From the NCBI GenBank assembly GCA_009917695.1, contig JAACJG010000008.1, positions 248,001-312,000 of the forward strand: a stretch of 64,000 nt of DNA. The letters run 5' to 3'. The notes under the pieces were generated by a model. The model searched no databases, was not told where the DNA came from, and saw nothing but the letters and a program-made list of their open reading frames with translations. Position numbers and translations under genes: made by a program. Position 1 is the first letter of the stretch. Every line of letters starts with the position of its first letter. This document shows positions 38,236 to 41,647 of this stretch, piece after piece. Source of the stretch: Candidatus Rifleibacterium amylolyticum. Lineage in GTDB: Bacteria > Muiribacteriota > Ozemobacteria > Ozemobacterales > Ozemobacteraceae.

Positions 38236-38280
38236 AGGGGGAGTGTCGATTGTACTAATGCAATTAACACAATCTTGCCA

Positions 38281-38982
38281 ATGAAGAAAACAGAACCAGC
38301 GCCCAAAAAACCGCTTCCTCCACAGGCCACGATAAGACGCCTCTCCGTTTATCTGCGTTACCTCAATGGACTTGACGGAGATGGCGTAAAGGTCATTTCT
38401 TCGCATGATCTTGCCCGCAGACTTGCGCTCAACCCGGCCCAGGTACGAAAAGATCTCGCCTATTTCGGCGAGTTCGGTAAGCGTGGCGTCGGCTACTCGG
38501 TAAAAAAGCTGCGTGACCATATAGTCAAGATTCTTGGCCTCCAGAAAATGCGCAAAGTAGCCATTATCGGAGCAGGCGGTCGGCTTGGCACCGCGCTCGC
38601 CCTGTATACCGGCTTTGAAAAGCGCAATTTCAAAGTCTGCGCACTCTTCGATAAAGATCCGGCCGTCATCGGCAACGAGGTCGACGGCGTCGGCAGAATT
38701 CTATCTATCGAAGAACTGCCGCGCACCGTTAAGGAAACGGGCATCGAGATACTTGTGCTGACTATTCCGGCTGCTGCGATCAAAGAGGTTCACGATATCA
38801 TCATGCTTTCTGGAGTAAGAGCCATTCTTAACTTTGCGCCATACAAGATGCTGTCGACCGAAGACGTCGCCGTTCATAACGTTGATCTGACAACCGAGCT
38901 GGAAGCATTGAGTTATCTTCTCTCTTTACGAGAATCCGGACTGACTTCTCTTGAAAACAACCTGCCTGCAGACAACGAATAA
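38281..38982 (+). CDS. rex: Redox-sensing transcriptional repressor Rex
   Basis: Rex senses the NADH/NAD ratio and represses fermentation and respiration genes. The product has about 233 residues: an N-terminal winged helix (TIRRLSVYLRYL, ISSHDLARRLALNPAQVRKD, GVGYSV) and a Rossmann domain with IIGAGGRLGTALALY, then the C-terminal swapped helix. I used ATG 38281; TTG 38275 is possible. A 13-codon mini-ORF (38,243-38,284) ends on the start codon, so coupling is possible. It follows fmt but an AAGGGGGAG purine run starts right at the fmt stop. Confidence 0.94.
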   Translation: MKKTEPAPKKPLPPQATIRRLSVYLRYLNGLDGDGVKVISSHDLARRLALNPAQVRKDLAYFGEFGKRGVGYSVKKLRDHIVKILGLQKMRKVAIIGAGGRLGTALALYTGFEKRNFKVCALFDKDPAVIGNEVDGVGRILSIEELPRTVKETGIEILVLTIPAAAIKEVHDIIMLSGVRAILNFAPYKMLSTEDVAVHNVDLTTELEALSYLLSLRESGLTSLENNLPADNE

Positions 38983-39014: not shown

Positions 39015-39044
39015 TTGACACCTTGTCTTAATCGGTGCTAGACT
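39015..39044 (+). promoter_or_regulatory. Promoter of the STAS-rel operon
   Basis: Perfect TTGACA (39015-39020) and TAGACT (39039-39044) are 18 nt apart, 29 nt before the ATG at 39,074. Confidence 0.65.
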
Positions 39045-39073: not shown

Positions 39074-39439
39074 ATGAGTCTTACCATTGATAGCCAGCAG
39101 CATGAAAACGATGTTGTAGTTATAGCCGTCAGCGGCGAAATTACCTTCGAAAATTCAGATCAGTTCCGCGACAAAATCGATCAGTTGTGCGAACAGGGCA
39201 GATATCGCCTGATCATCGATCTTGCCGGCCTGCAGTATATGAGTTCAGCCGGAATGGGTGTTCTTGTCCATGGCCTTAAGAAAGCGCGTGCCAAAAATGG
39301 CGATCTGCGCCTGATAAATCTCAGCGAAAAGATGCGCCGGGTATTTCTGATCACCCAGTTTACTCATCATTTTATGGTTCTGCCTAACCTTGAAGAAGCT
39401 GTAAAAAGCTTTGCCGCCACTGACGAAAGCAGCAGGTGA
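39074..39439 (+). CDS. STAS-domain anti-sigma factor antagonist (SpoIIAA/RsbV-like)
   Basis: This 121-residue single-domain protein has the STAS fold signature LIIDLAGLQYMSSAGMGVLV, including the Ser that switch kinases phosphorylate. Such proteins release a sigma factor from an RsbW/SpoIIAB-type anti-sigma kinase, or act in other partner-switching circuits. Neither kinase nor phosphatase is adjacent. TTGGAG precedes the ATG. Its TGA stop is followed in frame by TAG and then by the rel coding region, in the same reading frame. Confidence 0.93.
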   Translation: MSLTIDSQQHENDVVVIAVSGEITFENSDQFRDKIDQLCEQGRYRLIIDLAGLQYMSSAGMGVLVHGLKKARAKNGDLRLINLSEKMRRVFLITQFTHHFMVLPNLEEAVKSFAATDESSR

Positions 39440-39445
39440 TAGATT

Positions 39446-41647
39446 ATTTCGCTCGAACAGATTTTTTCCGCAATTAAATCTTACAACCCCGAAGCCGATT
39501 TCGACCGCATCGAACGCGCTTATAAGTTTGCCGAAGAATGTCACAAAGACCAGTTCAGAGCCTCAGGTGAGCCTTATTTTCTGCATCCTGAATCAGTTGC
39601 TTTGATAGCAGCGGCTGAGCTGAAACTCGATACAACATCGATCTGCGCTGCGCTGCTGCACGATGTAATCGAAGACACCGCCGCCACCTCCGCTGACATC
39701 GAAGCAATGTTCGGCCCAACCATGGCACAGCTGGTCGAAGGCGTCACCAAGCTGAACAAGATGTTCTTCAGCTCAGCAACAGCCGCTCAGGCCGCCAACT
39801 TCCGCAAAATGCTCTTCGCCATGACCAACGACGTCAGAGTTATTCTGATCAAACTCGCAGATCGCCTGCACAACATCAGAACCCTTCAATATCTGCCGCC
39901 GGTCAAACAAAAATACGTTGCGCGCGAGACCATCGAAATCTACGCGCCCCTAGCCCACCGCCTCGGCATCAATAAGGTCAAAAGTGAACTCGAAGAGACT
40001 TCCTTCAAGGTTCTACAGCCAGAAAAAGCCAAAGAAATCTACGAGTTTCTCAATTCAACCGGCCTTGAAGGCGACAGCAAATTGCGCGAGGCCATGCAGC
40101 AGCTTGAAGAACACCTGATCGAATTCAATATCAAAGCGCGCATCACCGGCCGACCCAAACAGGCTTACTCGATCTACAACAAAACTCTAAAATACAACAC
40201 CAGTATCGAGGGGCTCTACGATTTCCTCGGCGTGCGCATTCTGACCGAGTCGGTCAAAGACTGCTACGGCGCTCTCGGCATGGTTCACAAATATTACAAG
40301 CCGATTCCCGGCCGCTTCAAAGACTACATTGCGGTGCCCAAGCCCAACATGTATCAGTCGCTGCACACCACCGTAATTTTCGACGGCAAACCGCTCGAAA
40401 TACAGATTCGCACCGAAGAGATGCATCGTATCGCCGAAGAGGGCATCGCCGCCCACTGGGACTACAAAGAATCAGGCGGCAAAGATTCGACGCCCGACTA
40501 CAAAGAGAAGCTTTCCTGGCTGCGCAATCTTATTGACTGGTATCAGGACGTAAAAGATGCGTCTGAATTCATGGAAACGGTCAAGGTCGAGCTCTTCGAA
40601 TACCATGTTTACGTATTTACGCCAAAGGGCGATGTTATCGAATTGCCGAGTGGAAGCACGCCGATCGATTTTGCCTACTCTATTCATACCGATGTCGGCC
40701 ATCGCTGCATAGGCGCCAAAGTCAACGGGCATATAGTGCCGCTCGAATACCGCCTGCAGAACGGCGATATCGTCTCGATTCTCACCAGCAAGAACCAGAA
40801 AGGCCCGAGCCGCGACTGGCTCAAGATCGTCGGCAGTGCCAGCGCCAAACGCAAGATCCGTATCTGGCTCAAAAAAGAATTCCGCGACGAATATGTCAGC
40901 AGTGGTGAACGCGAGTTCGTCGAGACATTTATTAAACTTGGCGGCGATCGGGAAACCGAAAAAACCTTCAAGACCGCAGCTTTTGGCAGCAAGGTCAAAG
41001 AACTCGGCTTTCCTTCTATCGAAGAACTCTACGCTGGCATCGGTGCCGGCGAAGTCAGGCCGCAGCAGGTAATCGGCAAGCTATTTCCCGACCTCATCAC
41101 CAGATCGGTGCCAAAACAACCCAACAAGGCGGCCCGACGCGAAAAGCAGAAAAAGCGCGACAACAAAGGACCGCGCATTATCGTCGGCGGCCTCGAAGAC
41201 GCATTGATAAAAATGTCACGCTGCTGCAATCCGATTCCCGGTGACGAGATAATCGGCTATATAACGCGCGGGCGTGGCGTGACCGTGCATAAGAAAGACT
41301 GCCCGAATGCGCGCAACCTGCAGAACGACACCGAAGACCGTCTCATCGACGTCAGATGGGATCTCGGCATAACCGAAGAACAGCACGTGGAAGGCGATTA
41401 CCTCGCCAAGATCCGCATCGAAACTACAGATCGCAAAGGCATGCTCAACTCGGTCACCAGTGTTATCGCGAATCAAGGCATCAACATTCATTCGGCCATT
41501 GCCAGAACAACGAAGCAAAAGACCGGTATTCTCGAGTTTTCGATTGAAGTGCGTGACTCGAACATGCTCGATGGCCTGCTTAAAGCAGTACAGCGTGTTA
41601 TTGGCGTTACCAAAGCTTATCGCATCGACAATCAGAGCGGCAAATAA
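39446..41647 (+). CDS. rel: Bifunctional (p)ppGpp synthetase/hydrolase Rel, apparent AUU start
   Basis: Rel makes and degrades the alarmone (p)ppGpp. The order is an HD hydrolase domain (LLHDVIEDT, IKLADRLHNIRTL), a synthetase domain (GRFKDYIAVPKPNMYQSLHT, EIQIRTEEMHRIAEEGIAAH), TGS (VYVFTPKGDVIELPSGSTPI), a zinc/helical region and a C-terminal ACT domain, 733 residues in all. Rel homology begins at least 50 residues before the first standard start (TTG 39602), at AYKFAEECHKDQFRASGEPY. The frame upstream reads TGA TAG ATT ATT. AGGTGA (39434-39439) is spaced 6 nt from ATT 39446, which I take as the start. This implies coupling to the STAS gene. Confidence 0.9.
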   Translation: MSLEQIFSAIKSYNPEADFDRIERAYKFAEECHKDQFRASGEPYFLHPESVALIAAAELKLDTTSICAALLHDVIEDTAATSADIEAMFGPTMAQLVEGVTKLNKMFFSSATAAQAANFRKMLFAMTNDVRVILIKLADRLHNIRTLQYLPPVKQKYVARETIEIYAPLAHRLGINKVKSELEETSFKVLQPEKAKEIYEFLNSTGLEGDSKLREAMQQLEEHLIEFNIKARITGRPKQAYSIYNKTLKYNTSIEGLYDFLGVRILTESVKDCYGALGMVHKYYKPIPGRFKDYIAVPKPNMYQSLHTTVIFDGKPLEIQIRTEEMHRIAEEGIAAHWDYKESGGKDSTPDYKEKLSWLRNLIDWYQDVKDASEFMETVKVELFEYHVYVFTPKGDVIELPSGSTPIDFAYSIHTDVGHRCIGAKVNGHIVPLEYRLQNGDIVSILTSKNQKGPSRDWLKIVGSASAKRKIRIWLKKEFRDEYVSSGEREFVETFIKLGGDRETEKTFKTAAFGSKVKELGFPSIEELYAGIGAGEVRPQQVIGKLFPDLITRSVPKQPNKAARREKQKKRDNKGPRIIVGGLEDALIKMSRCCNPIPGDEIIGYITRGRGVTVHKKDCPNARNLQNDTEDRLIDVRWDLGITEEQHVEGDYLAKIRIETTDRKGMLNSVTSVIANQGINIHSAIARTTKQKTGILEFSIEVRDSNMLDGLLKAVQRVIGVTKAYRIDNQSGK

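Follow-up and report, generated by a model that had tools for sequence, protein, structure and literature searches.

Results

Translation of rel from an AUU codon

We found that rel, the gene for the long RelA/SpoT homologue of Candidatus Rifleibacterium amylolyticum, is almost certainly translated from an AUU codon at position 39446 of the analysed stretch of 64,000 nucleotides (hereafter, the window). Judged from the gene and its relatives, rel has no usable canonical start, its ATT has been kept beyond what the protein demands, and a well-spaced Shine-Dalgarno (SD) sequence precedes it. The best explanation, to which we assign a probability of roughly 0.7, is that the AUU start keeps Rel output low and sensitive to IF3, with partial coupling to translation of the STAS gene upstream. 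The features of the locus are the following:

39015..39044, forward strand: sigma-70-like promoter candidate TTGACA-18-TAGACT ahead of STAS-rel, its second hexamer preceded by TG (consensus scan)
39074..39439, forward strand: STAS-domain protein of the anti-sigma-factor-antagonist type, 121 aa, opening the STAS-rel unit (PF01740, E=4e-22; TIGR00377 over cut-off)
39434..39440, forward strand: predicted SD of rel, AGGTGAT, overlapping the STAS stop codon (anti-SD duplex energy; conservation)
39443..39445, forward strand: upstream ATT of the tandem, not used as start (unconserved)
39446..39448, forward strand: predicted AUU start codon of rel (family conservation; aligned with the Bacillota-type ATG)
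39446..41647, forward strand: rel, long RelA/SpoT homologue, 733 aa plus stop, with HD, synthetase, TGS, RIS and ACT domains (Pfam, TIGR00691)
39602..39604, forward strand: TTG, first canonical in-frame codon, an internal Leu and not a start (52 upstream codons conserved as protein)

The STAS/rel junction reads ...AGC AGC AGG TGA TAG ATT ATT TCG CTC GAA CAG ATT... in the window. The TGA at 39437-39439 ends STAS and is followed by TAG 39440; both stops lie in the rel frame, which STAS (39074-39439) shares. From ATT 39443, the rel frame stays open until the stop codon 41645-41647; the first in-frame ATG, GTG or TTG after TAG 39440 is TTG 39602, 52 codons in. The SD motif AGGTGA (39434-39439) ends 6 nt before ATT 39446. 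A preliminary description of this DNA had given the same coordinates for the stops, the tandem ATT, AGGTGA 6 nt before the second ATT, and TTG 39602. The consensus scan yielded one promoter against 0.7 expected, and the assignment of 39015..39044 as the STAS-rel promoter is suggestive only. The gene upstream of STAS (38275-38982) appears to encode a Rex-type redox repressor; the order Rex-STAS-rel recurs in most family genomes, with Rex not detected in the g11 genomes.

The window protein unites HD hydrolase, synthetase, TGS and ACT domains and thus qualifies as a long RSH (Rel/SpoT) enzyme, with Pfam matches to PF13328, PF04607, PF02824, PF19296 and PF13291. Its TIGR00691 score is 782 bits when translated from ATT 39446 versus 736 bits from TTG 39602 (cut-off 499). 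The RelA/SpoT synthetase domain has a single match in the genome (5.39 Mb, 35 contigs), which is the window rel. A distant second match to the Rel N-terminal HD region, with 34% identity, was found within a 289-aa frame elsewhere in the window genome (G000:C5:107499-107867), and this frame possibly encodes a stand-alone HD hydrolase.

Evidence for initiation at ATT 39446

Mean pairwise amino acid identity in the rel frame is 0.16 over codons -12 to -1, 0.61 over codons 0-11 and 0.78 over codons 12-51. The jump from 0.16 to 0.61 falls at the ATT, indicating that translation begins there. A comparison of the window genome with its congener (G002) shows 14 synonymous and 4 non-synonymous changes in the 52 codons that precede the first canonical one; this synonymous excess indicates that these codons are translated, which bears out the preliminary description of coding sequence upstream of TTG 39602. 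Seven Bacillota-type homologues (L047, L048, L049, L051, L055, L057 and L061) carry an ATG at the exact position of the ATT.

We detected rel in 22 of 24 sampled genomes of the uncultured Ozemobacteraceae (phylum Riflebacteria), the named relatives of the window genome being Candidatus Riflebacteria and Candidatus Ozemobacter genomes. The codon at the 39446 position is ATT in all of these rel genes except that of G014, and the 21 ATT genomes are separate assemblies from nine genera, in which ATA, ATC or GTG never replaces the ATT. Ten alignment columns across the 21 genes contain a single codon: nine consist of ATG or TGG, the codons without synonyms, and the tenth is the start ATT. When codon changes were mapped onto the tree, the ATT column had 0 and all other amino-acid-invariant degenerate columns had 1-12 (276 columns in total); each of the 18 other invariant Ile columns had 3-9 on the same tree. 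Among the other Ile codons of rel, ATT accounts for 0 of 43 in G015 (L016), 3 of 43 in G008 and 3 of 48 in G020. The invariance of the ATT column thus goes beyond protein constraint and is explained by a start codon. Codon -1, which corresponds to 39443, specifies Ile in just 4 of the 21 genomes, and we place the start at 39446 because the first ATT is unconserved. Of the two ATT codons considered in the preliminary description, the second therefore holds as the start and the first does not.

Relation of rel to the upstream STAS gene

Of the 21 ATT genomes, all but G021 yielded a STAS gene ahead of rel. In 19 of these 20, STAS terminates within a zone reaching from 36 nt before the ATT to 31 nt beyond it, with overlaps of 19-31 nt in five genomes; in G022, the STAS stop precedes the ATT by 135 nt. 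Translational coupling of rel to STAS, as suggested in the preliminary description, is plausible from this arrangement and likely common. It does not appear to be essential, because of the 135 nt gap in G022 and the missing STAS in G021. A dispersed repeat of ~100-250 bp with inverted ends (L220:18108-18366; G000:C4 about 78,100-78,370) has dozens of matches in G002, one of which (G002:C43:320080-320176) directly precedes the STAS gene, with rel a few hundred bases further on.

Other readings of the junction have to account for the same alignments. TTG 39602 is the first canonical codon of the window rel, and initiation there would give a truncated Rel; six of the 21 genomes also have an in-frame canonical codon 2-3 codons upstream of the ATT (GTG at -3 in four g11 genomes, TTG at -2 in two g5 genomes). 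Use of any such codon as the start is very improbable, given that protein-level conservation extends through the 52 codons ahead of TTG 39602, in which part of the HD domain lies, that the first canonical codon downstream of the ATT shifts from +5 to +87 among genomes, that the upstream GTG and TTG codons lie inside or touch the SD, and that 15 of the 21 genomes contain no canonical codon between the in-frame stop and the ATT. A frameshift from the GTG within AGGTGA was rejected, this GTG being absent in several genomes (e.g. L004, L010, L015 and L017). The common frame of STAS and rel in the window, with TGA TAG as the sole barrier, lay behind an earlier suggestion that readthrough could produce a STAS-Rel fusion. 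Fusion by readthrough or frameshifting is still less credible: STAS shares the rel frame in only 6 of 20 genomes and all three frame relations (0, 1 or 2) occur, the gap ranges from -31 to +135 nt, STAS is undetected upstream in G021, and the upstream in-frame residues are unconserved. We found no conserved in-frame STAS-Rel junction across the 20 STAS-bearing ATT genomes and abandoned this suggestion. That a sequencing or assembly error destroyed an ATG, an idea favoured only by the rarity of AUU starts, has a negligible probability. Alignment of the junction in relatives, proposed in the preliminary description as a check for an ATG that would betray such an error, returned the identical ATT in 21 of 22 genomes, each assembled separately.

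Shine-Dalgarno strength and the exception G014

The window SD forms a duplex of -10.7 kcal/mol with the standard anti-SD, stronger than that of ~88% of 290 canonical-start genes. Most of the 21 genomes have an SD of the AGGTGA/AGGTGG type that ends ~6 nt ahead of the ATT, with typical family values of -9 to -14 kcal/mol and weaker ones (-4.8 to -7.4 kcal/mol) in four members (L004, L012, L015 and L017). In G014 (L023), rel starts with an ATG one codon upstream, behind a weak SD of -3.3 kcal/mol, and the strengths of start codon and SD look compensatory. In the Rel tree, G014 falls within the family, its branch being long and its placement moderately supported; a single gain of the AUU close to the family's base, followed by loss in G014, is thus probable. 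The ATG of G014 also means that the AUU is not indispensable, and a role in level setting alone is possible. Folding of the RNA around the rel start in five genomes revealed no obvious common structure, and the rel and infC loci had no match in Rfam.

Genome screen and infC

IF3 discriminates against non-canonical start codons, and infC has an AUU, AUC or AUA start through which IF3 exerts autocontrol. We screened blindly for conserved coding sequence upstream of every canonical start in 701 non-overlapping ORFs with G002 homologues (1.04 Mb, 19% of the genome), with a threshold of at least 3 synonymous changes and synonymous changes not below non-synonymous ones. The non-overlapping set was used because the unfiltered screen was dominated by shadow ORFs. 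The screen, which is blind to genes with a canonical codon within about ten codons after the real start, returned only two of the 701, rel and infC, and a smaller round with 345 ORFs gave the same pair. Two weak candidates at 12-13 columns (C5:53547 and C4:101376) were rejected; they resemble conserved untranslated leaders that precede an ATG.

In the family, infC starts with ATC in 16 and with ATT in 4 of 20 genomes, preceded by GGAGGT and a spacer of 6-7 nt. IF3 is intact, with both domains present. The analogy to infC drawn in the preliminary description is apt, as infC of this family likewise lacks a canonical start and is the only companion of rel in the screen. The anticodon of the initiator-type tRNA is CAU, which rules out an altered initiator tRNA. 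The infC leader (L124, G000:C12 about 78,100-78,180, minus strand) is strongly conserved in the genus just upstream of the SD; its fold comprises a strong hairpin, a T run behind it and then a second stem pairing with the SD, and the leader looks like an attenuator.

Distribution outside the family

Outside the Ozemobacteraceae, rel has an ATG, GTG or TTG near the N-terminus in all 14 genes read from other Riflebacteria families and in all 65 loci read from outside the phylum. Two records labelled Erysipelotrichia bacterium (L034) and Candidatus Methylomirabilis (L035) contain an Ozemobacteraceae-type rel with 87% and 83% identity, respectively, and are probably mislabelled Riflebacteria.

Discussion

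We propose that rel is translated from a dedicated AUU behind the good SD AGGTGA. The initiator tRNA, with its CAU anticodon, would mispair with the third base of the AUU, and the resulting weak initiation would depend on the SD and probably also on ribosomes terminating at the adjoining STAS. IF3 would reject AUU initiation complexes, leading to low Rel output; a shortage of IF3 relative to 30S subunits, the same condition that de-represses infC, would raise it. Rel, which would be ribosome-bound, may thereby be scaled to the ribosome pool. A low, IF3-sensitive Rel output is rather likely, and we infer the sensitivity from infC and sigR as well as from published work on E. coli. Raised IF3 inhibits non-canonical starts in E. 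coli with minimal effect on canonical ones (PMC2268962), and the GTC start of Streptomyces sigR was found by experiment to be repressed by IF3 (PMC5472188). Output from AUU and AUA starts in S. aureus amounted to ~10% of that from AUG when the medium was poor, and one of the two had a clear medium dependence (PMC13009471).

Alternatively, the AUU could serve as the start and set a fixed low Rel level, with IF3 varying too little to regulate it. Such a situation would resemble E. coli pcnB, whose translation is limited by an AUU start according to Binns and Masters (2002) as cited in PMC1780047. The AUU of S. aureus cvfC1 had no medium dependence (PMC13009471), and G014 combines its ATG with a weak SD as if output were held constant. 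We consider a fixed level unlikely, since an ATG with a weak SD would be a simpler way to achieve it, yet 21 genomes retain the exact ATT, and since the sole other such gene in our screen is infC itself. Within the preferred reading of an IF3-sensitive AUU start, we tentatively suggest, at somewhat less than even odds, that infC and rel together make up a small regulon gated by IF3, in which an excess of 30S subunits over IF3 would cause both IF3 and Rel to be made. If so, the amount of Rel would follow the ribosome pool, and the (p)ppGpp made by Rel would in turn hold back ribosome production, so that start-codon fidelity becomes part of a feedback loop.

To our knowledge, AUU starts are established for very few bacterial genes, and non-canonical starts as such are already known from infC, pcnB, sigR, cvfC1 and ccpN. 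Like infC, rel combines a conserved non-canonical start of the same mispairing class with a good SD in a central translation-related gene. Unlike infC, it encodes a (p)ppGpp synthetase/hydrolase, so that control by IF3 would act in trans, and its start is always AUU in the 21 ATT genomes, whereas the start of the family infC varies between AUC and AUU. Streptomyces sigR (PMC5472188) is similarly a stress regulator with a strong SD and a conserved non-canonical start that is misannotated by gene finders; it differs in codon and gene, its GTC is conserved in Streptomyces only, and its repression by IF3 is experimental, whereas that of rel is a prediction. E. coli pcnB, in the account available through PMC1780047, shares the AUU and its limiting effect on translation, but encodes a poly(A) polymerase in another lineage. 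The AUU of cvfC1 and the AUA of ccpN in S. aureus (PMC13009471) are also lineage-conserved starts with an extended SD, but belong to small regulators for which ribosome profiling and reporters exist. With the long RSH family TIGR00691, the window protein shares the domain order and a full-length match, whereas the rel genes inspected outside the Ozemobacteraceae have ATG, GTG or TTG starts.

Our literature search found no report of an AUU-started rel or of an ATT start linked to ppGpp, which is weak evidence of novelty as subscription literature was thinly covered; the single paper that brought together non-canonical start codons and the stringent response deals with pathway engineering. Start-codon gating of (p)ppGpp control is a possible consequence of our findings and is undescribed as far as this search reaches. 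For annotation, gene finders limited to ATG, GTG and TTG will either cut 5 to 87 residues off the Rel of this family or place the start of the gene wrongly. Overall, the occurrence of an AUU start on the family's only long (p)ppGpp enzyme, beside that of infC, suggests that start-codon fidelity may be wired to the stringent response in the Ozemobacteraceae.
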